A stretch of 64,000 bases of DNA from Sphaerisporangium rubeum (GTDB taxonomy: Bacteria; Actinomycetota; Actinomycetes; Streptosporangiales; Streptosporangiaceae): positions 2,906,501-2,970,500 of the forward strand of contig NZ_JACHIU010000001.1 in assembly GCF_014207705.1 (NCBI RefSeq), in the 5' to 3' direction. The notes beneath the pieces are model-generated. The model made no database searches. It was not told where the DNA came from and saw nothing but the letters and a program-made list of their open reading frames with translations. A program made the translations under genes and the position numbers. Shown in pieces: positions 4,877 to 51,190 of this stretch (its first letter is position 1; each line of letters starts with the position of its first letter).

Positions 4877-6599
4877 CGAAGTTCACGGCCAGGAGGTTGG
4901 GGAGGTCGTAGCGGTCGATCTTCAGGTGGCTCGTTTCCGGGAGGAGTTCTTTGAGGCGGTCTGTGGTGAGGTAGGTGCGCAGCCACGTGTACTCGTCCGG
5001 AGTGCGGGTCCAGACGCCGAGGTTGGCGTTGCCGCCTTTGTCGCCTGAGCGGGCTCCGGCGATCGTTCCCAACGGGGCCCATCGGACATCTGTGCCGGCA
5101 GGTACGGGGGAGGGTTTCTCGCCGTACGGCGGCGCCGAATTCGCCGTACCACGTCCCGCCGCGTCGGCGCCGGAGAGGGAGGTGCCGGGGAGGCGGGGGG
5201 AGGGCTCGGCGGTGGCGGGGGGTGGGGGTGCGTGGCTTGCCTTCGTGGAGGACGTGTGGTGTGCGGTCTGGTCGGGGGAGGTGTGGTGCACGGTCTCGGT
5301 TGGTGGGGGGGACAGGTGGACTTGTGGGTGGACGGTGGTGGTGGGGGTCGTGGTGGGCCAGTAGACGCCGTAGGGGGTGGCGTCGGTGGGTGGGGTGAGG
5401 GAGTAGAAGCCGGGGTAGCTCGCCAGGCCGGTTTCCACGACGGCGGAGGAGAAGGCGCGGCCGGCAAGGCGCTGGTCGGGGGACATGACGGTGATGCGGA
5501 GGAGGGCCAGGCCGGCGGGGGTGGTGGGGGTGAGGTCGGTGTGGACTTCGGTGAAGGAGGATTTCGGGACTCGGGTGAAGATGGCTTCTTCGGCCAGGCG
5601 GGCTTTGGCTTCGAGGTCGAGGCCGGTGAGGGCCAGGGTCATGGTGTTGCGGTAGCCGGCCAGGTAGTTGAGGGCCACTTTCAGGGTCGGAGGTGGAGGG
5701 GTGCCTTTGACGCCGGTGATGTGGACGCGGTCGGGGGATCGCTGAGTGAGGTGGATGGTGTCGAAGTGGGCTGTGACGTCGGGGCCCTGGTAGGCGGGGG
5801 AGGCGATCTCGTAGAGGAGTTGTGCGGTGACGGTGCCGATGGTCACGGCGCCGCCGGTGCCGGGGTGTTTGGTGATGACGCTGGAGCCGTCGGCGTGGAG
5901 TTCGGCTATGGGGAAGCCGCAGTGGGGGAGGTCGGGGATCTCCTCGAAGAAGGAGTAGTTGCCGCCGGTGGCCTGGCAGCCGCATTCGATGACGTGGCCC
6001 GCCACGACGGAGCCGGCGAGAGCGTCGAGGTCGGTGGCGGTCCAGCCGAAGTGCCACATGCCGGGGCCGGTGACGAGAGCGGCGTCGGTGACCCTGCCGG
6101 TGATGACGACGTCGGCGCCGGACCGGAGCGCGGTGGCTATGGGACGGCCGCCGAGGTAGGCGTTGGCGGTGACGGGGGTGGCGGTCAGGGGTTCGCCGGT
6201 GTCCATGTTGGTCATGTCGCCGAGGTCGGTGCCGGCGGCGAGCAGGTCGTCGCCGGTGATGTGGGCCACCGTCGGGGTGAGGCCGAGACGGGACGCCAGA
6301 TCTGTGACGGCCTGGGCGCAGCCCGCCGGGTCCAGGCCGCCGGCGTTGGAGACGATCTTGATGCCGCGGTCGAGGCAGGTGCCGAGGACCTGTTCCATCT
6401 GGGTGAGGAACGTGCGCGCGTAGCCGGGACGACCCTTCATGCGGTTTCCGGCCAGGATGAGCATGGTCAGCTCGGCCAGCCAGTCACCGGTGAGGACGTC
6501 GATGGGGCCGCCGTCGACCATCTCGCGTGCCGCCGACAACCGGTCGCCGTAGAAGCCGCTGCAGTTGGCGATCCGCAACGGCGCCTCGCCGCTCGTCAT
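4755..6599 (-). CDS. AtuA-family protein (DUF1446) with long low-complexity linker
   Basis: A 614-residue member of the acyclic terpene utilisation AtuA family, whose biochemical role is unsettled but which is linked to catabolism of branched acyl-CoAs. Residues about 8-400 are the N-terminal DUF1446 domain (IANCSGFYGDRLSA, VSNAGGLDPAGC, ITGRVTDAALV) and residues about 510-605 the small C-terminal domain (GARSGDKGGNANLGVW). Between them lie about 100 residues rich in T, P, H and S, encoded partly by a copy of a dispersed 53-bp repeat (near residues 476-494). The start overlaps the stop of the hydratase gene by ATGA, so it closes the carboxylase operon. Its 3' end overlaps the MFS gene. Confidence 0.86.
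   Translation of the reverse strand: MTSGEAPLRIANCSGFYGDRLSAAREMVDGGPIDVLTGDWLAELTMLILAGNRMKGRPGYARTFLTQMEQVLGTCLDRGIKIVSNAGGLDPAGCAQAVTDLASRLGLTPTVAHITGDDLLAAGTDLGDMTNMDTGEPLTATPVTANAYLGGRPIATALRSGADVVITGRVTDAALVTGPGMWHFGWTATDLDALAGSVVAGHVIECGCQATGGNYSFFEEIPDLPHCGFPIAELHADGSSVITKHPGTGGAVTIGTVTAQLLYEIASPAYQGPDVTAHFDTIHLTQRSPDRVHITGVKGTPPPPTLKVALNYLAGYRNTMTLALTGLDLEAKARLAEEAIFTRVPKSSFTEVHTDLTPTTPAGLALLRITVMSPDQRLAGRAFSSAVVETGLASYPGFYSLTPPTDATPYGVYWPTTTPTTTVHPQVHLSPPPTETVHHTSPDQTAHHTSSTKASHAPPPPATAEPSPRLPGTSLSGADAAGRGTANSAPPYGEKPSPVPAGTDVRWAPLGTIAGARSGDKGGNANLGVWTRTPDEYTWLRTYLTTDRLKELLPETSHLKIDRYDLPNLLAVNFVIHGLLGRGVAASPRLDPQAKALGEQLRAQLVPIPPRRSA
5120..5172. repeat. 53-bp dispersed imperfect palindrome, copy 1 (inside atuA-like gene)
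   Basis: This 53-bp segment matches 56045-56097 at 51 of 53 positions in the same orientation. Both copies contain a perfect 9-bp inverted repeat, CGGCGCCGA / TCGGCGCCG (here 5129-5137 and 5163-5171), around a 25-bp centre with GAATTCGCCGTAC. Here it lies in frame inside the low-complexity linker of the AtuA-family protein. It resembles a REP-like or miniature insertion element. Confidence 0.72.
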
Positions 6600-7381
6600 G
6601 CCGGCCGCTCCCCGGTCGCGCCGTCCGGGGCCGGGATCCAGGAGGCGGGACGTTTCTCCCGGAAGGCGCTGATGCCTTCCTGGCCTTCGGCCGAGGTGAA
6701 GCGTTCGGCGGAGAGGTCCGCCATCTGGCGCAGGCCCTCGTCCACGGACATCGAGGGGACGGTGCGCACCAGCCGCTTGGTGATCGCCAGGGACTCGGGG
6801 CCGCCTTTGAGCAGCATTCCGGTGTAGTGCGCGACCGTGTCGTCCAGGGTCCCGGGGGGGACGGCGCGGGTGAGAAGACCGATGCCGACGGCCCGGGTGG
6901 CGTCGAAGACCTCGCCGGTGAGGAAGTACTCGGACGCGGCGCGGGGGTCGAGGCGCCGCAGGACGGTCACGGCGATCATCGCGGGGACGACGCCGAGACG
7001 TACCTCGCTGAACGCGAACGTGGCGGTGTCGGGGGCGATGGCGAAGTCGCAGGCCGCGACCAGGCCGAGGCCGCCGGCGCGTGCGGTGCCGTTCAGTCGG
7101 CAGATCACCGGCTTGGGGCTGTCCCAGATGGCGCGCAGCACGTCGGGGAACGCGCCGGTGACCGGTGCGCCGGACGCGGCCTGCTCCTTGAGGTCGGCGC
7201 CTGAGCAGAAGACGGTGCCGGTGCCGGTGAGGACGAGCACGCGTGTGGCGTCGTCGCCGAGCGCCTGGCCGAGAGCGTCGAGCAGTTCGGCGAGCAGCCG
7301 GGTGGACAGTGCGTTGCGGTTGGCGGGGGAGTCCAGGGTGAGGGTCGCCACGCCGTCGCGTGTCTCCAGATGAACGAGCAT
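6596..7381 (-). CDS. Enoyl-CoA hydratase/isomerase family protein
   Basis: A 261-residue crotonase-fold enzyme. The oxyanion-hole segments are visible as FCSGADLKEQ near residue 58 and RAGGLGLVAACDFAIA near residue 103; SEVRLGVVPAMIAV follows. Family members hydrate or isomerise enoyl-CoA thioesters. In this operon, with a biotin-dependent carboxylase and AtuA, a role like methylglutaconyl-CoA or isohexenylglutaconyl-CoA hydratase in leucine or acyclic-terpene catabolism is likely, but that is inference from context. The residue usually serving as second catalytic glutamate appears replaced in GVVPAM. AAGGAGAACTG precedes the ATG. Its stop overlaps the atuA start by four bases. Confidence 0.9.
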   Translation of the reverse strand: MLVHLETRDGVATLTLDSPANRNALSTRLLAELLDALGQALGDDATRVLVLTGTGTVFCSGADLKEQAASGAPVTGAFPDVLRAIWDSPKPVICRLNGTARAGGLGLVAACDFAIAPDTATFAFSEVRLGVVPAMIAVTVLRRLDPRAASEYFLTGEVFDATRAVGIGLLTRAVPPGTLDDTVAHYTGMLLKGGPESLAITKRLVRTVPSMSVDEGLRQMADLSAERFTSAEGQEGISAFREKRPASWIPAPDGATGERPA

Positions 7382-9499: not shown

Positions 9500-11089
9500 T
9501 CACATCCGGAAGACGCCGAAACCGGCGGAGGCGGGAGGTGGGGGAGGGGAGGAGCAGATGGCGGACAGGCACAGGCCGAGGACGGTGCGGGTGTCCCGGG
9601 GGTCGATCACGCCGTCGTCGTACAGGCGGCCGGACAGGAAGAACGCCAGGGACTCGGCTTCGATCTGGGCCTCCACCATCTGGCGCATCGCGGCGTCGGC
9701 CTCCTCGTCGTACACCTGGCCGCGGGCCTGCGCGGCGGCGCGGCCGACGATGGACAGCACGCCGGCGAGCTGCGCGGGGCCCATGACGGCGGACTTGGCG
9801 CTCGGCCAGGAGAACAGGAAGCGTGGCGCGTAGGCGCGGCCGCACATGCCGTAGTTGCCGGCGCCGTAGGACGCACCCATGACGACGGTGAGGTGCGGCA
9901 CGGCCGAGTTGGCCACCGCGTTGATCATCATCGCGCCGTGCTTGATGATGCCGCCTTGCTCGTACCGCTTGCCGACCATGTAGCCGGTGGTGTTCTGCAG
10001 GAACACCAGTGGCGTTCCGGTGCGGTCGGCGAGCTGGATGAACTGCGCCGCCTTCTGCGACTCCTCGCTGAACAGCACTCCTCGCGCGTTGGCGAGGATC
10101 CCGACCGGGTGGCCGTGCAGCTCGGCCCACCCGGTGACCAGCCCGGCCCCGTACAGGGCCTTGAACTCGTCGAACTCGCTGCCGTCCACGACCCGCGCGA
10201 TCACCTCACGCGGGTCGAACGGCACCTTCAGGTCCTCCGGCACCACCCCGAGCAGTTCGTCCTCGTCGTACAGCGGCGGCGCACCCACCCGGGAAGGAGC
10301 GGCGGGCCGGTTGAGCCGCCGCACGATCCGCCGGCCGATGCGCAGCGCGTCGTGCTCGTCGAGGGCCAGATGGTCGGCGAGCCCGGACACCCGTGCGTGC
10401 ATCTCGGCGCCGCCGAGGGACTCGTCGTCGGCGTCCTCCCCGGTGGCCATCTTGACCAGCGGCGGCCCGCCGAGGAACACCTTGGCTCTCTCCTTGACCA
10501 TGACCACGTGGTCGCTCAGCCCCGGCACGTACGCGCCGCCGGCGGTGGAGTTGCCGAACACCAGCGCCACCGTCGGCACGCCGGCCGCCGACAGCCGTGT
10601 GAGGTCGCGGAACACCTGGCCGCCGGGGATGAAGATCTCCTTCTGGGTCGGCAGGTCCGCGCCGCCGGACTCCACGAGGTTGATCAGCGGCAGGCGGTTC
10701 TCCAGCGCGATGTCGGAGGCCCGCAGCGACTTGCGCAGCGTCCACGGGTTGGACGACCCGCCGCGCACGGTCGGGTCGTTGGCGACGATCACGCATTCGA
10801 CGCCTTCGACGACCCCGATCCCGGTGACGACGCTCGCACCGACCGGAAAATCGGTGCCCCACGCGGCCAGCGGCGACAGCTCAAGGAACGGCGAGTCGGG
10901 ATCGACGAGCAGCTCGACGCGTTCCCTCGCGGTCAGCTTCCCCCGCGCGCGGTGCCGGTCGACGTATTTGGCGCCACCTCCGGCGACGGCCTTGGCCTGT
11001 TCCGCGCCGAGGTCCGCGAGCTTGGCGAGCATGGCCTCCCGCCTGGCCCGGACGGCGGGGTCGGCGGGGTCGAGACGGCTGTGGATCAC
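9500..11089 (-). CDS. Acyl-CoA carboxylase beta subunit (carboxyltransferase)
   Basis: A 529-residue carboxyltransferase that moves the carboxyl group from biotin to an acyl-CoA. Family stretches include RERVELLVDPDSPFLELSPL, INLVESGGADLPTQ, VFGNSTAGGAYVPGL and ASYGAGNYGMCGRAY. The last motif and the overall length suit 3-methylcrotonyl-CoA or geranyl-CoA carboxylases better than propionyl-CoA carboxylase, though specificity cannot be read reliably. The GTG start has AGGAG six bases upstream. The C-terminal tail (SSPPPPPASAGFGVFRM) is longer and more proline-rich than usual. It is the first gene of the four-gene catabolic operon. Confidence 0.93.
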   Translation of the reverse strand: MIHSRLDPADPAVRARREAMLAKLADLGAEQAKAVAGGGAKYVDRHRARGKLTARERVELLVDPDSPFLELSPLAAWGTDFPVGASVVTGIGVVEGVECVIVANDPTVRGGSSNPWTLRKSLRASDIALENRLPLINLVESGGADLPTQKEIFIPGGQVFRDLTRLSAAGVPTVALVFGNSTAGGAYVPGLSDHVVMVKERAKVFLGGPPLVKMATGEDADDESLGGAEMHARVSGLADHLALDEHDALRIGRRIVRRLNRPAAPSRVGAPPLYDEDELLGVVPEDLKVPFDPREVIARVVDGSEFDEFKALYGAGLVTGWAELHGHPVGILANARGVLFSEESQKAAQFIQLADRTGTPLVFLQNTTGYMVGKRYEQGGIIKHGAMMINAVANSAVPHLTVVMGASYGAGNYGMCGRAYAPRFLFSWPSAKSAVMGPAQLAGVLSIVGRAAAQARGQVYDEEADAAMRQMVEAQIEAESLAFFLSGRLYDDGVIDPRDTRTVLGLCLSAICSSPPPPPASAGFGVFRM

Positions 11090-11122
11090 GCTGCGCTCCT
11101 GAGATCGTCCTCGCGTCGCAGG

Positions 11123-12661
11123 CTACCCGCAGTGGGACCAGCCGCTCTGCCAGGAGGTACCCGCGTGGCTGCCACCCCAGATGACGCAGGCCTTCCCGGC
11201 GGTGAGCCGCACCGGCCCGGCGTACGCGGTGAACATGCCGCCGTCGGACTGCGACGCGCCGCCTTGCACCTTGAGCACGGCCGACATCCGGACCTTCTGC
11301 GGCGCGACGTACTTGGCCATGGTCACCACGCAGTTCTTGCCGGCGGTCGCGTTGTACATGAGCACGACCGTGGCGTTCGCGCCGAGCGCGTGCGCGTCGA
11401 TCCGCTTGTACCCGGACCCGCAGACCTGCGCCGCGGTGTACGGGTTGGGCTTCGGCGACGGGCTGGGTTTCGGCGTCGGCGTCGGCTTCGGGGTGGGGGT
11501 GGCCGAAGGGGTCGCGCTGGGGGTGGGGGACGGCGCAGGGGTCGGTGTGCGGGTCCGCGACGGCGACGGCGAAGGGGTGCGGGACGTGCGGGCCGCCGCC
11601 GGACGGCTGGGCCGCGGGGACGGCGTGCGGGTGCGCCGCGTCGGCGTGGCCGTCGGCGACCCGGCCGGCTCGGCGGTGGGTTCCTCGCTGCCTTCCACAC
11701 CGGCGACGACCGGCGGCTGCGCCTGCGGGGGATCGGCGCCGGCGCGCAGGGCCAGGGTGGCGCCGGCCGCGAGCACGGCGGCGACGAGGCCGGCCGCCAC
11801 CGGCACGAGCACCGGCCGCAGGCGGCGCGGCGCACGCGGCGGCGGTGGCGGGACGAACGGCCGGCCCATCAGGTGGGACAGCACCTGCTCGGCCGTCGGC
11901 CTGCGCGCCGGGTCCTTGGCGAGGCACGCGGCCACCAGGTCGCGCAGCGGCCCGTCCAGGGGGCCGAGGTCAGGCGGCTCGTGCAGGATGCGGTTGATCA
12001 CCGCGGGGATGGAGTCGTTGCCGAACGCGGGCCGTCCCCCGGCCGCGTAGACCATCGTGACACCCCACGCGAACACGTCCACCGCCGAGGTGAGCGGCCC
12101 GCCGCCGAGCTGCTCAGGCGCCAGGTACGACGGCGTGCCGATCGTGTCGGCGGTGAGCGTGGCGCCGGGGGTGTCCAGCGCGCGGGCCACACCGAAGTCG
12201 ATGACGACGGGCCCTTCGGGGCCCATGAGCACGTTGGCCGGTTTGAAGTCGCGGTGCAGGACGCCGGCGCTGTGGATCGCGGCGAGCGCGGTCGCCGTGC
12301 TGACCGCCACCCGGTCGAGCGCGGCGCCACGCCGCGGCCCTTCGCGGTCCACCAGCAGCCGCAGCGACGGTCCCGGCACGTACTCGCTCACGATGTACGG
12401 CCGGTCGCCTTCGACGTCGGCGTGCAGCACCGGCGCGGTGCAGAACCGCGCGACCCGCCGCGCGACCTCGACCTCGCGCAGGAACCTGGCCCTGGCGTCG
12501 CCGTCGTCCGACAGCCGCGCGTGCAGCAGCTTGACCGCGACCGGCTCCCCGGACGGCCCCCGGCCGAGGTAGACGACCCCCTGGCCGCCTTCCCCGAGGC
12601 GTCCGAGCAGCTCGAACGCCCCCAGGCGGTGCGGATCGCCGCCGGTGAGCGCCTGCGTCAC
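11123..12661 (-). CDS. Transmembrane Ser/Thr protein kinase with extracellular sensor-like domain
   Basis: A 512-residue Hanks-type kinase. The kinase domain spans residues about 15-265: LGEGGQGVVY loop at 22-31, ATP-binding lysine at 44, catalytic HRDFKPAN at 136-143, DFG at 155-157 and GTPSYLAPEQ in the activation segment. Proline-rich residues follow, then one membrane segment near 285-305 (VLVPVAAGLVAAVLAAGATL). Outside the cell come about 100 residues of Thr/Pro/Ser repeats and a C-terminal domain of about 95 residues with three cysteines (VCGSGYK, NCVVTM, ACVIWG) and a fourth in the terminal HCG. No PASTA repeats are seen, so it is not a PknB orthologue; the ligand is unknown. The start is a GTG. 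Confidence 0.92.
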   Translation of the reverse strand: MTQALTGGDPHRLGAFELLGRLGEGGQGVVYLGRGPSGEPVAVKLLHARLSDDGDARARFLREVEVARRVARFCTAPVLHADVEGDRPYIVSEYVPGPSLRLLVDREGPRRGAALDRVAVSTATALAAIHSAGVLHRDFKPANVLMGPEGPVVIDFGVARALDTPGATLTADTIGTPSYLAPEQLGGGPLTSAVDVFAWGVTMVYAAGGRPAFGNDSIPAVINRILHEPPDLGPLDGPLRDLVAACLAKDPARRPTAEQVLSHLMGRPFVPPPPPRAPRRLRPVLVPVAAGLVAAVLAAGATLALRAGADPPQAQPPVVAGVEGSEEPTAEPAGSPTATPTRRTRTPSPRPSRPAAARTSRTPSPSPSRTRTPTPAPSPTPSATPSATPTPKPTPTPKPSPSPKPNPYTAAQVCGSGYKRIDAHALGANATVVLMYNATAGKNCVVTMAKYVAPQKVRMSAVLKVQGGASQSDGGMFTAYAGPVRLTAGKACVIWGGSHAGTSWQSGWSHCG

Positions 12662-12753
12662 TCAGAACCCCCGTGAATCATGACTTGGTGGTGTTTGCCG
12701 GTTCTCGGCACGCTATCAGCGGGACGCCGTCAGCCGCCGGTGACTTGAGAGGC

Positions 12754-14112
12754 TCAGATGGCCTTCCCGGGGTTCATGATGCCGAGGGGATCGAAGACGT
12801 TCTTGATCCCCCGTTGCACGTCGCCGGAGACCTCTCCGCGCTCCAGGTCCAGCCAGCGGCGCTTGAGCACCCCCACGCCGTGCTCCCCGGTCAGCGTGCC
12901 GCCGAGGCGCAGCGCCGCGCGGAACACGTCGTCGGCGGCGGCCCACACGTGCGGCGGCGGCTCGGCCAGGCCGCGCTCGAAGATGAACACCGGATGCAGG
13001 TTGCCGTCGCCGGCGTGCGCCACCGTGCTGATCAGCGCGCCGTGCCGCTCCGCCGCCGCCTCGATCTCGGAGATCATCACCGGCAGCGCGGACCGCGGCA
13101 CGCACACGTCCTCGACCAGGCACGTGCCGAGCCGTTCCTTGGCCTGGTACGCCAGCCGCCGCACCCCGATCAGCTCCTCGGCCTCATCGGGGCTGGAGGT
13201 GGCGGCCACGAACGTCGCGCCGTTCTCCTCGCACAGCGCGGCCATGCGCTCGGCCGCGCCGGGGACGCCGTCGTCGGACTGGCCGATCAGCATGGCCCGC
13301 ACCCCGGGTTCGAGGCCGATGTTCTTCCAGTCGTCGATGGCCTTGAGGGTGTTGCGGTCCATGAGCTCCAGCAGCGAGGGACGGCACCCGGCGGCGATGA
13401 TGGCCGCCACGGCGTCCCCGGCGGCGCGCAGCGAGGGAAACTCGGCGGCGAACGTCGCAGGCGGCGTCTCCGGCGCGCGGCGCAGCCGCAGCGTGGCCGC
13501 GGTGATCACACCGAGCGTGCCCTCGGACCCGACGAACAGGCCGGTGAGGTCGTACCCGGTGACGCCTTTCATGGTGCGCCGGCCGGTGGCGAGCACCCGG
13601 CCGTCCGGCAGCACGACCTCGAGGCCGAGCACCGAGTCGCGGGTCACGCCGTACTTGACGCAGCGCAGCCCGCCGGCGTTGGTGGCGAGGTTGCCGCCGA
13701 TGGTGGAGATCTCGTACGACGACGGGTCCGGCGCGTACATCAGCCCGTGCGCGCGCGCGGCGCGGTCCAGGTCGGCGGTGATCACGCCGGGTTCCACGAC
13801 GGCGATCTCGTCGGCCGGGGACAGCTCGCGCACGGCCGTCATGCGGATCATGGAGAGCATCACGCAGCCCTCCACGGCGGTGGCGCCGCCGGCGAGACCG
13901 GTGCCGGCGCCGCGCGGCACCACCGGCACGCGGTGCTCGGTGGCCCAACGCAGCGTGGTCACCACGTCGTCGCGGCTCTCGGCGACGACGGCGCACAGCG
14001 GCGTGCCTGGTGGAAGGAATGTTTGGTCGCGAGCGTAGGCACCGGCGACGTCGGGATCGGTCAGCACACGGCCCGCGGGCAGGGCCGCGACGAGGTCAGC
14101 CAGGTGGTTCAC
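12754..14112 (-). CDS. glcD: FAD-linked oxidase (GlcD / D-lactate dehydrogenase family)
   Basis: A 452-residue flavoprotein of the VAO family, related to the GlcD subunit of glycolate oxidase and to D-lactate dehydrogenases, which oxidise 2-hydroxy acids. The FAD-binding domain shows VVPRGAGTGLAGGA near residue 67, PDPSSYEISTIGGNLATNAGG near 130 and FVGSEGTLGVIT near 195. The C-terminal cap has AHAGDGNLHPVF and TLTGEHGVGVLK, which carry metal- or substrate-binding histidines. No iron-sulfur subunit gene (GlcF) is adjacent, so it may work alone. It starts with GTG and is divergent from the M6 protease gene. Confidence 0.9.
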   Translation of the reverse strand: MNHLADLVAALPAGRVLTDPDVAGAYARDQTFLPPGTPLCAVVAESRDDVVTTLRWATEHRVPVVPRGAGTGLAGGATAVEGCVMLSMIRMTAVRELSPADEIAVVEPGVITADLDRAARAHGLMYAPDPSSYEISTIGGNLATNAGGLRCVKYGVTRDSVLGLEVVLPDGRVLATGRRTMKGVTGYDLTGLFVGSEGTLGVITAATLRLRRAPETPPATFAAEFPSLRAAGDAVAAIIAAGCRPSLLELMDRNTLKAIDDWKNIGLEPGVRAMLIGQSDDGVPGAAERMAALCEENGATFVAATSSPDEAEELIGVRRLAYQAKERLGTCLVEDVCVPRSALPVMISEIEAAAERHGALISTVAHAGDGNLHPVFIFERGLAEPPPHVWAAADDVFRAALRLGGTLTGEHGVGVLKRRWLDLERGEVSGDVQRGIKNVFDPLGIMNPGKAI

Positions 14113-44678: not shown

Positions 44679-45233
44679 AAACTACTCCTCATGGACAAAA
44701 AGGATTGGGAACGCCGGGTCGCGGACGCCTGGGCCTCGTTCGACACCCGCACCGAGACCGACTTCCTCACCCTCATCGGCACCCTCGCCGCCGAACTCCC
44801 CGCCGACGACGGTGACGCGCTGTTCGAACGCGCCGCCGCCTACGACTCCACCGGCCACCCCGCCGAAGCCGTCACCCTCTACCGGCAGGCCCTCACCCAC
44901 GACCTGTCCGGCGAACGCCGCCGCCGCACCGTCATCCAGCTCGCCAGCTCCCTGCGCAACCTCGGCCACCCCGAGGAAGGCGTCGCACTCCTCACCCCGG
45001 AACTGGCCGTCACCGACCACCTGGACGACGCCGTCCGCGCCTGCCTGGCCCTCTGCCTGGCCGACACCGGCCGCGAACGCGAAGGACTCTCCCTGGTCCT
45101 CGCCGCGCTGGCCCCCCACCTGCCGCGCTACCAGCGCTCAATGGCCAACTACGCTCGCCTCCTCATCGACCCGGACCCGCCTGCCACGCCGGACGGGCCG
45201 CCGGTTCACGACCAGCGCGAACGCGATCAGTAG
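44652..45233 (+). CDS. Tetratricopeptide-repeat protein
   Basis: A 193-residue soluble protein (180 from the internal ATG at 44691) made of TPR-like helices: LFERAAAYDSTGHPAEAVTL, QLASSLRNLGHPEEGVALL and LALCLADTGREREGLSLVL are three repeats. It matches the tetratrico peptide repeat group in which a short acidic N-terminal helix (WERRVADAWASFDTRTETDF) precedes the repeats. Such proteins bind other proteins; no partner is obvious. Neither start has a good ribosome site; the ATG at 44652 lies in a duplicated segment, so 44691 may be the original start. The stop overlaps the end of the convergent HATPase gene by seven bases. Confidence 0.82.
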   Translation: MPPADETSEKLLLMDKKDWERRVADAWASFDTRTETDFLTLIGTLAAELPADDGDALFERAAAYDSTGHPAEAVTLYRQALTHDLSGERRRRTVIQLASSLRNLGHPEEGVALLTPELAVTDHLDDAVRACLALCLADTGREREGLSLVLAALAPHLPRYQRSMANYARLLIDPDPPATPDGPPVHDQRERDQ

Positions 45234-45676
45234 CTCGACACCCCCTCCCCGGCCTCGGCCCGCAGATAGGCCCACACGGTGTGACCGTCCACCGAACTCC
45301 CCTGAAACCCGAACCGCACCGCCACCGCCGCCACGATCGCCAGCCCGCGACCGTTCTCCTCCACATCCCCGTCCACCACTCCGGCCCGGTCCCCGTCCAC
45401 CGCGCCGGCCTGCGGCACATCACCACCCCCTTCGTCGTGGACGGCGACCAGTACCCCGGCCCTCCCCGGAAGCGGTGACCGCGCGACCGTCACCTCCACG
45501 ATGAACCGGCCGCCGGGCCCACCGCTGCGCGTGTGCCGCAAGGCGTTGCCGGCCAGCTCCGACACGATCAACTCGGCCTCGTCCGCACACGAGGTACCCG
45601 CGAGCAGGAACCGGACGAACCGCCGGGCCTGAGCCGCCTGGTCGGGCCTGCCGGGAAAGGACCTGGCCCACACCAT
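45227..45676 (-). CDS. RsbW-like ATP-binding protein (HATPase)
   Basis: A 149-residue GHKL ATPase-type protein like the anti-sigma factor RsbW and the many stand-alone HATPases of actinomycetes. WARSFPGRPDQAAQARRFVR opens the family match, ELIVSELAGNALRHT is the N box, and ENGRGLAIVAAVAVRFG the G2 box. A loop rich in D, G and V (AVDGDRAGVVDGDVEE) is inserted before it. The ATG at 45676 fits the usual start. A longer frame to 45982 would include a 19-residue repeat that I consider leader DNA. It is divergent from the TPR-containing regulator and may function with it. Confidence 0.83.
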   Translation of the reverse strand: MVWARSFPGRPDQAAQARRFVRFLLAGTSCADEAELIVSELAGNALRHTRSGGPGGRFIVEVTVARSPLPGRAGVLVAVHDEGGGDVPQAGAVDGDRAGVVDGDVEENGRGLAIVAAVAVRFGFQGSSVDGHTVWAYLRAEAGEGVSSY

Positions 45677-46029
45677 GGTCCCCGCGAAGGCCGTGGAAAG
45701 CTGTGACGACGCGGCCCTTCCCGGCCTGTCGATCCGGGGGATGAGACTCTCCGAAAGCTGTGACGACGCGGACCCTTCCGGCCTGTCGACCCGGCCGTCG
45801 CCTGGCATGTGTGACATGGGTCCGAATCTGGCGTGCGGACCCCGGCGGCGGCATACCCGGTCACCTCCGGCCGGTGATCGCGTGATCGCCGCGATGACCA
45901 GCCAGAACACGTACATCAGGCAGCCGGTGTTCCCGAGTTGGCATGACCGGCCTCTCCGAAGGGGTAAACTCCTGGTAATCAATCAAGTGCGATCGGTGAC
46001 CACATGGCCATGCCGGAAGGGGGTCCACG
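45677..46029. other. 353-bp divergent intergenic region with 57-bp-period repeat
   Basis: The region lies between the starts of the HATPase (45676) and the TPR regulator (46030). GAAAGCTGTGACGACGCGG occurs at 45696 and 45753, and similarity continues for about 42 bases per copy (period 57). The right part (45940-46000) is AT-richer, with GGGGTAAACTCCTGGTAATC. I see no further gene. The repeats may be regulator sites or an N-terminal extension of the HATPase frame. Confidence 0.6.
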
Positions 46030-47616
46030 ATGTCGGGGGACGGCTACCGTGTCCTGCTCGAATGCCGCAGGCGCAGCGAGGCGCTACGCGGCCAGGGCTT
46101 CGGCCACGACCAGATCGCCGACATCTTCGCGCTCTACCACCAGGCCACCCCACTGAAGCTCCACCGGTACGCGCACGGCATGACCGGCTCCGAGGTGGTG
46201 GCCGCCTACAACGACCTCGACCCGGCAGCCGGCGCGTCCCTGCGCGAGTGCCGCCTGTACGTCTTCGAGTCCTGGCCCGCCTCCGACCGCCGTCCGAGCG
46301 CACAGGCCCTGACCGTCTTCGCACGCATCTATCGCACCAAGGCCAGACGGCTCATCACCGACGAGGTCTACGCCACGTACACCGTCAAGGACCGCGAGCT
46401 CATCAACCGTACGGACCACAGCCACCTCGCTCCCCACCCCTCTCGTCCTGTCCCAGCCAAGAAGCTTTCGCGTGCCAGCATGGACACCGAGGCGCCTGCC
46501 GAGGACGAGGCCTATGTCATCACCCCCTCGGAATGCGGCGTACTTCTCAGCACCCTCAGAACCGAGGAGGCCGATGTGCGACGACGCGACCTGCTGTTCG
46601 AACTGGCCCTTGCCTTAGGCGGCACCCCCGCAGTGACCCTGCTACGCCACCTCACCCCACCTGAGGAGGACCGGCTCACCCGAGCCGTACGCGGCACCGG
46701 CCGTGTCGACACCGCCACCGTGGAAGTGATCGAGAAACTGACGGCCCGCTGCCGCCGCCTCGACGACGACTTCGGCCCCGCCACCGTCCTGTCCACGGTC
46801 GAGGCCCAGCGCGCTCTCGTGACCGGAATGCTGCGCCACGAGTCGGCGCTACCCGCCGTGCGCGACCGGCTCATCCGTGCTCGCGCTCAACTCGATCAGA
46901 TGTCCGGCTACATCTACAACGACCTGCTGGACTTCCCGCAGGCACGCCGCAGGTACCACGCCGCTCTGACCGCCGCACAGCAGATCTCCGACGTGCACCT
47001 GAGCGCGTACGTCCACGTCCTCCTGAGTCGCATGGCAGACGGCCGGGGCCGTACGGGGACCGCCTTGGACCACTCCTTCGCGGCCCAAGGCTGGGCTCGC
47101 CGCGGCTCCAGCGATCTCGTGCGTTCCGTCCAGAGCATGGAACTGGCACGCATGCTGGCGAGAGCCGGTGACGCCAAGGAGAGCGAACGAGCACTCGCAC
47201 ACTCGACCCAACTCGCCGGCCGGTCGCGAGGCGAAACCGACCCCCTCTATCTGTACTGGTGGACCATCGACCAGGTGCAGAGCTGCGCATCCGACTGCAT
47301 GCTCGCCTGGGACCGTCCCGACGACGCCATCGCGGCAGCAGAACAAGCCCTGACCTCACCGACCATGCCTAAGTACCTGAAGGGGCAAACGTATGTCCGA
47401 TACGCACAGGCCCTGACCCGCAAACGCGACATCCCGGCAGCCGCCGACAAACTCCGCCAAGCCGCACACGTCGGCCGCGCATACAACTCAGGCTGCCTGT
47501 CCCGCCTGATCCGCCAAGCCCGCACCCACCTCCAGCCCTGGGAACGCAACAAACACATCCGCGACCTCGACGAAGAACTAAGAGTCCTCGGCGTCACCAC
47601 CACCGCCACCGCCTGA
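46030..47616 (+). CDS. Large regulator-like protein with N-terminal helical domain and TPR region
   Basis: A 528-residue protein resembling actinobacterial transcriptional regulators with a DNA-binding-like N-terminus and a C-terminal TPR sensor region. Residues about 1-110 hold helices (SEALRGQGFGHDQIADIFAL, MTGSEVVAAYNDLDP) similar to a divergent HTH followed by YATYTVKDRELI. Residues about 260-515 are helical repeats (LLDFPQARRRYHAALTAAQQ, AYVHVLLSRMADGRGRTGTA, DDAIAAAEQALTSP, AADKLRQAAHVGRAYN). There is no ATPase or signal peptide. It is divergent from an HATPase gene. Such proteins may sense peptides or small signals, but this is inference; the N-terminal assignment is moderate. Confidence 0.72.
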   Translation: MSGDGYRVLLECRRRSEALRGQGFGHDQIADIFALYHQATPLKLHRYAHGMTGSEVVAAYNDLDPAAGASLRECRLYVFESWPASDRRPSAQALTVFARIYRTKARRLITDEVYATYTVKDRELINRTDHSHLAPHPSRPVPAKKLSRASMDTEAPAEDEAYVITPSECGVLLSTLRTEEADVRRRDLLFELALALGGTPAVTLLRHLTPPEEDRLTRAVRGTGRVDTATVEVIEKLTARCRRLDDDFGPATVLSTVEAQRALVTGMLRHESALPAVRDRLIRARAQLDQMSGYIYNDLLDFPQARRRYHAALTAAQQISDVHLSAYVHVLLSRMADGRGRTGTALDHSFAAQGWARRGSSDLVRSVQSMELARMLARAGDAKESERALAHSTQLAGRSRGETDPLYLYWWTIDQVQSCASDCMLAWDRPDDAIAAAEQALTSPTMPKYLKGQTYVRYAQALTRKRDIPAAADKLRQAAHVGRAYNSGCLSRLIRQARTHLQPWERNKHIRDLDEELRVLGVTTTATA

Positions 47617-48019
47617 GACGAACCACCGGACCCGCCGCCTGGTTAAGCTGACTCGCCGTTCGAACGGCCGGGCATCCCGGTCCTTTGGTCATAAGATTCG
47701 AGGTTCCCGGACTCGGCATCCGGCGACGTGGCCCGTCGGGACGCCGAGTACGTGAGGAACGCAGGGGCGAGGGTGCGATGAGGCAAGTCGGCTTTGAGAT
47801 CGGTGAGCGGACCGGAACGGGGCGAGCGCAGTCGCTGGAGGACCTCGGCGGCGTCGTCGCTTGCGAGTCCTCAACGGAGAGCGGACACAGGGTGACGGGC
47901 TTTCGCCTTCCCGAGCAGGCATGGATGGGTCGCCTTCCCGAGCAGGCATGGATGGGTTCTGAGCAGGGACGGATGCGTCCTGATCTGGCGTGGGCCTGGC
48001 CCGAGCAGGGGAGCACGAG
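47617..48019. other. 403-bp gap upstream of the AAA ATPase gene
   Basis: No recognisable gene is present. TAAGAT at 47692-47697 is a possible -10 box. The right half contains a perfect 27-bp tandem duplication (47904-47957). An open frame from 47685 to 48023 translates the repeat as RLPEQAWMG twice but shows no family resemblance and no ribosome site, so I do not call it. Confidence 0.5.
47904..47957. repeat. Perfect 27-bp tandem duplication
   Basis: Two identical 27-bp units (47904-47930 and 47931-47957) start CGCCTTCCCGAGCAGGCATG. Degenerate further copies of CCGAGCAGG-type sequence continue to about 48011, up to the ribosome site of the ATPase gene. Confidence 0.85.
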
Positions 48020-49375
48020 TTGATCACCCGGATCGAGGCGTACGGCTACCGCTGCTTCCAGACGCTAGGGGTCGATCTCGGCCGCTATCACGTCTTCGCC
48101 GGGGCCAACGGCGCGGGGAAGACGACGTTGCTGGACATCCCCGCGTTGCTCGGCGACATGCTGGACCGGCGGCGGGTCGTCTCGGCGTTCCTTGAGCGGC
48201 AGGAGCACGGCCGGGCTCCCCGAGCGAGCACCCCGGTCGAACTGCTGCACAAGGGGGAGGGGGACAGTATCGGTTTCGCCGTCGAGGCGCGTCTGGACGA
48301 CGACCTCTCTGAGGTCCTGGCGCAGGCCGCTCAGGTTCGCCACGGTGAGCGGCGTGTCCACACCCATCTGCGCTATGAGCTTCGACTCAGGGTCACCCCA
48401 CGGACCGTCGACGTCGAGACGGAGTACCTGTATCTGGACTTCAGAGCCGACACCGGCGTGGAGATGGAGGCATCTCCACACGGGACGGCGGAGCGCGGTC
48501 TGGAGGAGGTGCCGCCGAATCGCCGTCCGGTGATCATGCGGAGCAGCAGATCGCCGGCCACAGGGTATCTCCCTGAGACAAACACTATGGTGACGGACTT
48601 GGTCCTTCCGGAAAAATTCCCTGCGCAGACCGAGCCGTCGCCGGGGAATGTGGCCATACCGCCTCTGCGAGTGCCGTTCGAGCAGCTCGCGCTGGGCTCG
48701 ATCCCCTCGGACGAGACGTTGTTCCCCGCCGCACTCTGGTTCGCGCAGTTGCTTCGCGAGCGCGCGGTGTTCTTCGCACCCGACTGGGAGGCGCTGCGGC
48801 GTCCCGCGCCTCCTGGAGACCCGCTGCGCCTGCTGCCATCGGGGGGGAACATGCCATGGCTCGCTCTCCACCTGCAGCAGACCGACACCGAGCGCTTCGC
48901 CGCCTGGGTCGATCATGTCCGGTCGGCGCTGCCGCAGGTCGCGGCGATCCACGCGGTGGAAAGAGAGGAGGACCACTACGCGTACTTCTCCGTGGAGTAC
49001 ACCGGCGGCTACCGGGTCACCTCCTCCGGTCTGTCGGACGGCACGTTGCGCATCCTGGCGCTCACGCTGCTGCCGTACCTGGGGGAGAAGGTCATGCCGC
49101 GGCTGCTCGTGACGGAGGAACCGGAGAACGGTATCCACCCGCGCGCGATCGAGACGGTCGTCGAGTCGCTGAGTTCGCTGTGGGACACCCAGGTCCTGGT
49201 GTCCACCCACTCGCCGATCGTCCTCGCGCACACCGAGTTGTCCGACGTGCTCGCCGCGCGGCTGAACGACGACGGGAGCGTCGGTGTGGTCCGCGGCGAC
49301 CGGCATCCCCGGCTCCGCGAGTGGCGTGGCTCGCTCGACGTCGGCACCCTGTTCGCGTCCGGTGTGCTCTCGTGA
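48020..49375 (+). CDS. AAA-family ATPase (OLD/RecF-like), probable defence-associated
   Basis: A 451-residue ATPase of the ABC/SMC-like AAA_15/AAA_21 type. The Walker A GANGAGKTTLL lies near residues 28-38, directly after the strand ITRIEAYGYRCFQTLGVDLG. The signature-like SSGLSDGTLRILAL and Walker B RLLVTEEPENGIHPRAIETV come near residues 340-385, with the switch histidine in VLVSTHSPIVL. The middle 250 residues are variable and predicted as a coiled or helical insertion. There is no nuclease domain, so activity probably depends on the partner gene 70 bases downstream. The TTG at 48020 has AGGGGAG upstream and gives the expected first strand. Similar ATPase-plus-small-protein pairs are found in anti-phage loci. 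Confidence 0.88.
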   Translation: MITRIEAYGYRCFQTLGVDLGRYHVFAGANGAGKTTLLDIPALLGDMLDRRRVVSAFLERQEHGRAPRASTPVELLHKGEGDSIGFAVEARLDDDLSEVLAQAAQVRHGERRVHTHLRYELRLRVTPRTVDVETEYLYLDFRADTGVEMEASPHGTAERGLEEVPPNRRPVIMRSSRSPATGYLPETNTMVTDLVLPEKFPAQTEPSPGNVAIPPLRVPFEQLALGSIPSDETLFPAALWFAQLLRERAVFFAPDWEALRRPAPPGDPLRLLPSGGNMPWLALHLQQTDTERFAAWVDHVRSALPQVAAIHAVEREEDHYAYFSVEYTGGYRVTSSGLSDGTLRILALTLLPYLGEKVMPRLLVTEEPENGIHPRAIETVVESLSSLWDTQVLVSTHSPIVLAHTELSDVLAARLNDDGSVGVVRGDRHPRLREWRGSLDVGTLFASGVLS

Positions 49376-49445
49376 CCCGCCGATCCCGCGAGGCATCACA
49401 CCGTGTCCCGTCGTCGTCTTCGCTCTGAGAGGTGAGCACACACAC

Positions 49446-50099
49446 GTGAACCGGCCCTCCCCCCAGCCGCCTGTCCGTGACGTCGTCTTCCTGGTCGCGG
49501 ACAAAGGAATGGAGGCGATGCTCCGCGGCTTCTTCTCTCGTGAGAGGTTCCATCACGCTCTCGGTTGCGGACCGTTCTCCGTGGATCCCGGACGCGACAT
49601 CATCGTCGATCCAGGTCGGGACCCCGGCGTGTTCCTCCGTGCGCACGAGTTGCTTCGCCTGTACGAGGGGGAGTACGCGCACGCGGTGGTCATGCTCGAC
49701 GCGGCTTGGGAGGGCAGCCCCGGCGCGGACGCCATCCGTGAGGCTCTCACGACGCGGCTCAAGTCCCGATGGGACAGTTTCACCGTCGTGGTGATCGACC
49801 CTGAGCTGGAGGCATGGATCTGGCAGGACAGTCCGCATGTCGCGCAGACGCTGAACTTCCCTTCCGACTTCCGTGCGATCCTCGAACGCAGCGGCCACTG
49901 ACCCGCCGGCTTGTCGAAGCCCCCCGACCCCAAGGCCGCACTCGACCACCTGCGGCGCCGCTACAAGCTCACATCCTTCAACGCCGAGTTCGGCAGGCTC
50001 GCCGCCAAGATCTCCGTCCGCAGCTGCCAGGACACGGCGTTCCAGTCTCTTTGTGAACACCTGCGGACCTGGTTTCCCCGCACGTCTCACCACCTGTGA
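49446..50099 (+). pseudogene. Small partner of the AAA ATPase, interrupted by an in-frame TGA
   Basis: GTG at 49446, with GAGGTGAG upstream, starts a 151-residue frame: DVVFLVADKGMEAMLRGFFS, DIIVDPGRDPGVFLRAHELL, HAVVMLDAAWEGS and VVVIDPELEAWIWQDSPHVA. It stops at TGA 49899-49901. The same frame then continues for 65 more residues (PAGLSKPPDPKAALDHLRRR, FGRLAAKISVRSCQDTAFQS, LRTWFP) to 50099. In proteins of this kind that I recall, this junction reads like WPAG..KP..PK, so the TGA probably replaces a TGG tryptophan. The N-terminal pattern of glycine/acid strands suggests a TOPRIM- or DUF4276-like fold, as in partners of OLD-type ATPases; this is from memory and moderate. The product is truncated, read through, or the TGA is a sequence error. 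Confidence 0.75.
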
Positions 50100-50188
50100 G
50101 AGATGAGACCTACCGGTACCTCCAGGGAAACGGCACCGGCCTGGAGGCCGTTATCATTCGGGACGCTTGTGGGCTTCGGGGAGGGTTT

Positions 50189-51190
50189 GTGCTGCTTCAC
50201 GATTTGTCGGAGGGGGATGGGGTTCTTGGACGGGTCGCGGGGGTGGCTCGGTCGGCGTTGCGGCGGTATGACGTGTCTGCTGGGGCTGAGGTCTCGCTGC
50301 TTGATGTGTCGGAGAATGCGACGTTTCTGGTTGAGGACGGGGAGTGGCGGGCTGTTCTTCGGGTGCATCGGCTGGGGTATCACGCGGCTGGGGCTGTCCT
50401 GTCGGAGTTGGACTGGGTGACGGCGTTGCGGGAGGAGGGGGTGGTGACCACGCCGGCTGTTGTGGCGGCGCGGGACGGGGAGCGGGTGGTCAGGGTCGAG
50501 GATCCTGGGGGAGAGGTGCGGGAGTGTGTGATGTTCGGGTTCGTGCCGGGGGGTGAGCCGGCGGAGGAGGCGTTGGTCGGCGGGTTCGAGCAGCTTGGGG
50601 TGCTTACGGCGCGGATGCATGCGCATGCGCGGAGGTGGGAGAGGCCGGCGGGATTCACTCGGTTTCATTGGGATGTGGAGGCGGCGTTCGGGGAGAGGGC
50701 TCGGTGGGGGAGGTGGCGGGACGGGGCCGGGGTCGGTCGTGCGGAGGTTGAGGTGCTCGGACGGCTGGAGGGTGTGGTGCGGGGCCGGCTGGCTCGGTTC
50801 GGGGTGGGGGAGGAGCGGTACGGGTTGATTCATGCGGATCTCCGAGCGGCCAATCTGCTGGTGGAGGAGGGGGTGGGGACTACGGTCATCGACTTCGATG
50901 ACTGTGGGTTCGGGTGGTTCATGTATGACTTCGCGGCGGCTGTCAGCTTCATCGAGGATCGTGCTGATGTGCCGGAGATGATGGATTCCTGGGTGCGGGG
51001 GTACCGGACTGTGCTGGAGCTGCCGGTGGCGGACGAGCGGGAGTTGTGGACGTTCGTCATGGTGCGGCGGTTGCTGCTGGTCGCATGGATCGGGACGCAT
51101 CCTGTGGTGGACATCGCTCAGCGGCTCGGTGCGGGGTACACCGAGGGCACCTGTGTCCTCGCCGAGCGGTATCTCACGAACTACCGCTGA
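50189..51190 (+). CDS. Aminoglycoside/choline kinase-like phosphotransferase (APH family)
   Basis: A 333-residue protein kinase-like phosphotransferase of the APH/homoserine kinase type. LLDVSENATFLVEDGEWRAV is the nucleotide-binding region, VLRVHRLGYH has the lysine/arginine substitute, HADLRAANLLVEEG is the catalytic loop (aspartate in HAD) and VIDFDDCGFGWFMYDFAAAV the metal-binding loop. Substrates range from choline and homoserine to antibiotics; none can be assigned. GTG at 50189 after GGAGGG is preferred; an in-frame GTG at 50096 overlaps the previous gene. Codon choice is unusual, with many GGG and GTT/CTT codons compared with neighbours, which may indicate a separate origin. Confidence 0.87.
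   Translation: MLLHDLSEGDGVLGRVAGVARSALRRYDVSAGAEVSLLDVSENATFLVEDGEWRAVLRVHRLGYHAAGAVLSELDWVTALREEGVVTTPAVVAARDGERVVRVEDPGGEVRECVMFGFVPGGEPAEEALVGGFEQLGVLTARMHAHARRWERPAGFTRFHWDVEAAFGERARWGRWRDGAGVGRAEVEVLGRLEGVVRGRLARFGVGEERYGLIHADLRAANLLVEEGVGTTVIDFDDCGFGWFMYDFAAAVSFIEDRADVPEMMDSWVRGYRTVLELPVADERELWTFVMVRRLLLVAWIGTHPVVDIAQRLGAGYTEGTCVLAERYLTNYR

Follow-up and report, generated by a model that had tools for sequence, protein, structure and literature searches.

In the methylation-associated defence system (MADS), MAD2 is a methyltransferase, MAD5 a specificity subunit and MAD6 a kinase. The partner of PtuA in Septu and retrons is the HNH-type PtuB, and in PARIS the Toprim partner AriB is of the DUF4435 type. 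PMC12409363 takes PARIS AriB as its subject. In a review (PMC10568477), the ATPase and Toprim genes of PARIS, which are separate, make up a proposed class 4 of OLD proteins, a placement described there as unsettled. For the OLD nuclease of Burkholderia pseudomallei, PMC6755086 places E400, E404, D455, D457, T506 and E508 around two metals, reports that K562 is also required for processive cleavage, and adds that truncation of the OLD helical domain impairs cleavage and nicking alike.

A two-gene locus in Sphaerisporangium rubeum can be compared with each of these systems. It lies in a 64,000-nucleotide stretch of DNA, the whole of which is called the window here. A first-pass annotation had taken the pair, an ATPase gene followed by a gene for a small partner, for a candidate undescribed defence module. 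The best explanation, with a probability of roughly 80%, is that the pair is left over from a MADS locus, orphaned and probably no longer active. On this reading MAD2, MAD5, MAD6 and MAD7 have been lost, while MAD3 stays open and well conserved and MAD4 is cut off ahead of its conserved lysines and C-terminal helices. The family identity, the lack of the partner genes, the stop codon, the position in the tree and the modelled folds are shown directly; deletion in this lineage, loss of activity and the gating mechanism are inferred.

The locus and its family identity

The ATPase, a MAD3-type ABC/OLD-like protein of 451 amino acids, is encoded on the plus strand at 48020–49375 from a TTG start, with an alternative GTG start at 47990. 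Its translation bears out the earlier reading of an intact Walker A (GANGAGKTTL), signature (SGLSDGTLRIL) and Walker B (LLVTEEPENG). After a gap of 70 bp (49376–49445, plus strand), a truncated MAD4-type, Toprim-like partner begins at a GTG codon and occupies 49446–49901 of the same strand, its 151 codons ending in an in-frame TGA (49899–49901). The first-pass annotation had placed the start of the partner correctly, 70 bases after the ATPase, and its end wrongly at 50099. The rest of the mad4 frame (49902–50099, plus strand) is a separate open stretch of 65 codons plus stop in the same frame, closed by a TGA at 50097–50099. The window pair lacks the 4-nt start/stop overlap that couples MAD3 and MAD4 in most relatives; GTGA is still present at the MAD3 stop, and its frame closes after 18 codons.

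The neighbours are as originally described: an NsdA-family TPR regulator upstream (46030–47616, plus strand; NF053720, 172.5 bits against a cut-off of 75), a HATPase_c_2 protein divergent from it (45227–45982, minus strand; PF13581, 46.1 bits), and an APH-like phosphotransferase ORF downstream of the mad4 frame (50096–51190, plus strand). At 50096–50099 there is a 4-nt overlap between the earliest start codon of this APH-like ORF and the TGA ending the mad4 frame. Two copies of a perfect 27-nt tandem repeat occupy positions 47903–47956, in the interval separating MAD3 from the NsdA-family gene; an intact MADS locus would have mad2 there.

The divergent HATPase and NsdA-family genes form a recurring cassette, with an HATPase homologue at 29 of the 30 NsdA loci read (own included; L117–L146 and the window). 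MAD3 or MAD4 sequence occurs at two of these 30 cassette loci, again counting the window's own, and three further loci (L127, L136 and L137) show distant ATPase similarity only. One genome, G312 (L027, L118), carries the same cassette followed by MAD3/MAD4 fragments: its broken MAD3/MAD4 copy adjoins a 59–60% homologue of the window NsdA-family regulator and also has a 60% homologue of part of the window HATPase, so the layout of cassette plus pair is present in another genus too. The idea that the NsdA-family regulator is itself a MADS remnant was rejected, as the NsdA-family queries taken from upstream of MADS in L018 and L020 miss the window gene (E ≤ 1e-3, more than 40 bits). A different type of regulator, matched by an Sco1979-like query, lies near MADS genes in L019, L022–L025 and L028.

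Both genes of the pair exceed curated, equivalog-level NCBIfam cut-offs. The ATPase reaches 547.7 bits with the MAD3 model NF047739 (cut-off 420; E 2.2e-164), and the truncated partner reaches 191.0 bits with the MAD4 model NF047734 (cut-off 160; E 2.5e-56), a score that becomes 278.2 bits (E 5.2e-83) when, for the search only, the stop in the mad4 frame is read as a residue. The locus accordingly holds MAD3 at equivalog level and a MAD4 family member that is incomplete. The top PADLOC model for the ATPase is mad3 at 121.8 bits, with HEC-01A almost level at 120.2 bits; the partner is assigned to mad4 (50.5 bits), with a HEC-01 model at E 0.027 only. Pfam matches AAA_21 in the ATPase (88.9 bits) and gives a weak hint of DUF4276 in the window partner (E 0.15, below the Pfam cut-off); DUF4276 is matched by 20 of 68 MAD4-like proteins at E ≤ 0.1, with a best value of 1.3e-5. 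The window MAD3 keeps 133 of the 138 columns that are invariant in nine relatives (0.96), compared with 0.95–0.99 in seven undecayed family copies accompanied by MAD2 (L018–L024) and 0.57 in the decayed copy of L025.

Descent agrees with these matches. A scan of named genomes found at least 573 relatives, of which the best 80 were retained, and the midpoint-rooted MAD3 tree comprises 88 rows; L038 (same DNA as L017), L020 (same DNA as L037) and L100 (partial) were left out. A split with support 100 separates 31 rows, namely 27 loci with MAD2 beside MAD3 plus the window, L017, L049 and L050, from 57 rows that lack neighbouring MADS genes; in 18 of these 57 a contig end is close by. The window falls within a ten-row set (support 98) together with eight Streptosporangiaceae MADS rows and the orphan L017, although the tree does not fix its exact position there. 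Being nested among MADS copies, the window MAD3 is MADS-derived and stands outside the stand-alone set, and it shares common descent with the MADS copies.

Judged by sequence, then, the window genes are MAD3 and MAD4 of MADS and hence do not qualify as an undescribed module. The tempting call of something new gives way to a MADS fragment, and the resemblance to a pair within methylation-associated defence clusters, which the first-pass annotation had pointed out, proves apt. Gene-family labels alone would report MAD3 and MAD4 as present in the window.

Partner genes, predicted folds and the in-frame stop

The genome of the window is a single contig of 7.5 Mb, which was searched with profile models for MAD2 to MAD7. 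It contains one MAD3 above the cut-off, along with three further MAD3 matches of 20–27 bits, and one MAD4 above the cut-off. MAD2, MAD5 and MAD7 have no match in the whole genome, and none of its 92 MAD6 matches exceeds the cut-off (best 204.2 against 460 bits). As a positive control, the MAD2 and MAD7 models do respond above their cut-offs in a genome of the same genus (G218), while the control for the MAD5 model was the MAD5 protein of G218 alone (590.2 bits). The earlier remark that no methyltransferase, kinase or specificity subunit is adjacent stands, in that no such MADS gene lies beside the window pair. The MAD6 model gives 204 bits for a long kinase gene elsewhere in the genome (L029; G000:C1:6327598-6329481), and related PglW-type kinases may explain this score, PglW-type having been seen as a match of MAD6 itself.

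The partner genes were probably lost by deletion in this lineage. Upstream of the window pair no mad2 remnant is recognised (score 0, a value reached by 153 of 1137 control stretches), and downstream no mad5 start is recognisable by eye. Because the window keeps neither a mad2 end nor a mad5 start, deletion in place is not demonstrated for the window itself. A MAD5 match in the window (58.9 bits, 49769–49978) was discounted, as it lies inside mad4 and the MAD5 query ORF from L018 extends into an overlapping frame; the family match of that ORF begins only at residue 120. A related orphan, L017 from Rhizohabitans arisaemae, may preserve such a remnant: the 19 codons before its MAD3 resemble the end of MAD2, with a score of 31 that none of 1137 window stretches reaches and that is the highest of 426 stretches in its own locus. 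The next best of these, which is unrelated, scores 28, and the putative remnant is therefore supporting rather than direct evidence; as such it supports deletion in a relative of the window.

The MAD4 fold was modelled on an intact relative, the Streptosporangium amethystogenes copy, from 68 sequences (mean pLDDT 92.9). Foldseek returned zero matches for this model at E ≤ 0.001, and its OLD match comes from VIA alone, whose top-ranked structures are OLD-nuclease C-terminal regions (6nk8 at Z 10.6 with rmsd 4.4 and 177 residues aligned; 6njx at Z 9.8 with 175 aligned). The MAD3 model (pLDDT 90.1) finds PtuA of Septu and retrons as its best Foldseek matches (8eea, 1.3e-11), and VIA pairs it with SMC, Rad50 and PtuA heads at Z 17–20. 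D78 and K151 never vary across the 68 aligned MAD4-like rows, and D12, E113, E115 and K156 are present in at least 90%. These acidic residues and lysines follow one another as their counterparts do in the catalytic set of OLD, whose equivalents we tentatively infer them to be.

These models suggest that MAD3–MAD4 is a split OLD nuclease of PARIS-like architecture, and the confident predicted fold of MAD4 suggests in turn that MADS contains such a nuclease. The guess of a Toprim- or DUF4276-like partner is matched by a Toprim-like modelled fold, which also answers the concern that the partner might have no nuclease-like fold, and the PARIS-type plan of an ATPase with a separate nuclease-like partner finds its counterpart in the Toprim-like MAD4 and PtuA/Rad50/SMC-like MAD3 models. 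In an intact MADS, the split OLD-type nuclease would consist of MAD3, an ATP-driven ABC head, and MAD4, a nuclease-like Toprim subunit. It would act beside the methyltransferase MAD2 with the specificity subunit MAD5, and beside the kinase MAD6 with MAD7. Until the sensing of foreign, incorrectly methylated DNA, the nuclease would be held or gated by the ATPase.

In the window, the full mad4 frame has 217 codons, and the standard-code product has 151. The whole-genome MAD4 search flags the premature codon as well ("1 TGA"), and all ten aligned relatives have tryptophan at its position. The two strongly conserved lysines correspond to residues 158 and 163 of the window frame, both beyond the stop, so the truncated MAD4 lacks both lysines as well as the C-terminal helices. 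Since the truncation removes these lysines and the helical tail, the window MAD4 is probably dead, and nuclease activity is likely absent. Sequence identity is much the same on either side of the stop, at 0.57–0.62 before and 0.61–0.68 after in the five closest relatives, and at 0.40–0.53 before and 0.44–0.47 after in the other five. This even conservation, together with the well-kept MAD3, indicates that the stop is recent, is a sequencing error or is read through.

Orphan and stand-alone relatives

Counting the window's own genome each time, 10 of 341 family genomes and 2 of 396 genomes from a phylum sample have a MAD4 above the cut-off; G082, G291 and G316 reach 26–32 bits in the family scan. 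Among 12 family loci above 100 bits, eight (L018–L025) have MAD2 and MAD5 beside the pair, and of these eight only L018–L021 have both MAD6 and MAD7 within the 20 kb read. The remaining four are orphans, comprising the window, L017 with an intact pair, and L026 and L027 with fragments. Neither MAD2 nor MAD7 exceeds its cut-off in the genomes of L017, L026 and L027 (G209, G210 and G312).

Orphans of the MADS clade tend, as far as their sequences tell, toward decay. With intact MAD4 defined as one open frame of full length, it is intact in one of six orphan loci of the clade (L017, and not the window, L026, L027, L049 or L050), compared with 25 of 27 loci that have MAD2 beside MAD3, the exceptions being L046 and L053. 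L026 and L027, whose sequences are not long enough for the tree, were assigned to the clade by similarity, and the orphan status of L049 and L050 refers to MADS genes sought within the available locus stretch. The decayed MAD3 of L025 and the broken MAD4 of L046 and L053 show that decay also occurs beside MAD2. L025 has, at 10323–11606, a MAD3 with a degraded Walker A that keeps 78 of 138 invariant columns in a locus retaining MAD2, MAD4, MAD5 and MAD6, while L046 has MAD2 and no MAD5, MAD6 or MAD7 match within its available stretch. The Thiomargarita nelsonii locus L050 carries two very similar, non-identical MAD3 copies (5492–7349 and 11654–12990), one adjoining a frame-broken MAD4 and the other a MAD4 start. 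A search of 72,556 plasmids with the window MAD3 gave one match at E ≤ 1e-30, on a Piscinibacter plasmid where the annotations next to the match resemble a MADS, by annotation alone.

The second clade of the tree consists of naturally stand-alone pairs, such as L066 of Desulfosarcina cetonica. Among the best 80 of at least 573 relatives, these come from Planctomycetota, Chloroflexota, Bacteroidota, Verrucomicrobiota, Thermodesulfobacteriota and others, and 56 of 57 rows have a tblastn match to MAD4, in some cases partial, beside the ATPase. MAD3/MAD4 adjacency is widely conserved, and the earlier doubt whether the two genes are kept together falls away. Of the rows labelled as pairs, 31 of 41 (a group in which L049 and L050 are counted) and 12 of 18 have the 4-nt start/stop overlap, as do 13 of 19 named loci with MAD2. 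All six stand-alone ATPases tested (L064, L103, L093, L059, L098 and L085) exceed the MAD3 cut-off, and PADLOC puts HEC-01A first for the same six. The MAD4 model matches every one of the 68 MAD4-like proteins scanned at E ≤ 1e-40, a set that leaves out four short or odd ORFs, and a HEC-01B model matches 17 of the 68 (best 1.4e-7).

The surroundings of stand-alone pairs were compared in 22 of 39 loci with PADLOC models at E ≤ 1e-10, using 87 of 229 neighbouring genes as a near set (one very long gene dropped) and 83 of 153 genes at least 6 kb away as a far set. Among the families listed, near genes match HEC-01, PLD_Helicase and similar models with one or two members each, and far genes match restriction–modification, DISARM, Druantia and others, mostly with one member each. 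No excess of defence genes is visible beside the pairs in these 22 loci, the far genes forming a weak control as they also lie within 10 kb. The search for the pair in other genomes that the first-pass annotation had suggested thus yields co-occurrence, and no visible excess of defence genes near the stand-alone pairs. The stand-alone ATPase of L064 matches two of the 72,556 plasmids at E ≤ 1e-30 and no phage among 50,697 at E ≤ 1e-15, and literature searches on DUF4276 and on HEC-01 with PADLOC found no paper.

Besides MADS, the MAD3 and MAD4 models thus take in a distinct, widespread clade of two-gene loci that lack it. NCBIfam labels extend to these stand-alone pairs without nearby MADS genes (L058–L116), and automatic annotation may over-call MADS there. 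It is conceivable, if somewhat doubtful, that MAD3–MAD4 is an autonomous split OLD nuclease, its two genes usually coupled in translation, which existed as a stand-alone module in many phyla, was captured by MADS and is occasionally freed again, as in L017 and the window. If so, the MADS-based family models label a much wider, uncharacterised system.

The existence of stand-alone relatives lends some plausibility to the view that the window holds a working MAD3–MAD4 pair that selection maintains although the other MADS genes are gone, with a TGA that is a sequencing error or is read through. The 133 of 138 invariant columns kept in MAD3 and the conservation of mad4 on both sides of the stop point the same way and count against simple decay, and L017, an intact MADS-derived pair in a genome without MAD2 or MAD7 above cut-off, shows that an orphan pair is able to stay intact, which counts against a relic. 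Nevertheless, this view is unlikely: the window has TGA where all ten aligned relatives have tryptophan, the coupled start is unused, and MAD4 is broken in five of six orphans while intact in 25 of 27 loci with MAD2, a difference that counts in favour of a MADS remnant.

A much less probable alternative is that MAD3 alone has been co-opted, for example under the HATPase/NsdA cassette, for a nuclease-independent role. It would account for an intact MAD3 beside a broken MAD4 and for the cassette followed by MAD3/MAD4 fragments in G312, and it has a parallel in the Escherichia coli OLD protein ybjD, for whose phenotypes the Toprim domain is dispensable and the ATPase domain essential according to PMC13261556. 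Yet MAD3 itself is reduced to fragments in G312, and only two of 30 cassette loci, own included, carry MAD3 or MAD4 sequence. The original proposal, a novel and independent module of PARIS type that has no relation to MADS, is hardly credible, for although it suits the ATPase with a separate Toprim-like partner and the lack of MADS methyltransferase, kinase and specificity genes nearby and of MAD2, MAD5 and MAD7 elsewhere in the genome, it is already contradicted by the nesting among MADS copies in the MAD3 tree, and the equivalog-level matches and best PADLOC models (mad3, tied with HEC-01A, and mad4) also oppose it.

Comparison with known systems

The MAD3 model most resembles PtuA of Septu and retrons by Foldseek, and "HNH nuclease" appears in the titles of the retron structures that it matches. 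The systems differ in their partners, which is a Toprim-like protein for MAD3 and PtuB for PtuA. The PADLOC candidate HEC-01 is likewise close on the ATPase side, where HEC-01A models, mostly ATPases, tie with mad3, and HEC-01B includes a 217-aa partner model. The window MAD4 nevertheless matches mad4, and a HEC-01 model only weakly.

PARIS (AriA/AriB) shares with the window pair the encoding of an ABC ATPase and a Toprim nuclease by separate genes. The window ATPase scores 87.1 bits with the AriA model, below its mad3 score, and the ATPase family profile matches the solved AriA structure (E 6e-4). In contrast to PARIS, the window ATPase has its tree position in MADS, and searches of Pfam, PADLOC and NCBIfam at E ≤ 1 give no AriB or DUF4435 model for the window partner. 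Class 2 OLD of B. pseudomallei resembles the MAD4 model over nearly its whole length, through the Toprim and helical C-terminal region. Unlike OLD, which is one gene, MAD3 and MAD4 are two; MAD4 also has Asp for Glu at the first Toprim position, and the second residue of its DxD is not strictly kept.

MADS itself is the nearest system. The window genome differs from it in having no match to MAD2, MAD5 or MAD7, no MAD6 above cut-off and a truncated MAD4, whereas both genes of the pair match at equivalog level, stand in the same order and fall in the same clade as the MADS loci of Streptosporangiaceae. The locus is ordinary in kind: one piece of a known defence system, orphaned and probably dead. 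What it adds is a good fold assignment for MAD4 and a pointer to a wider family of two-gene loci.
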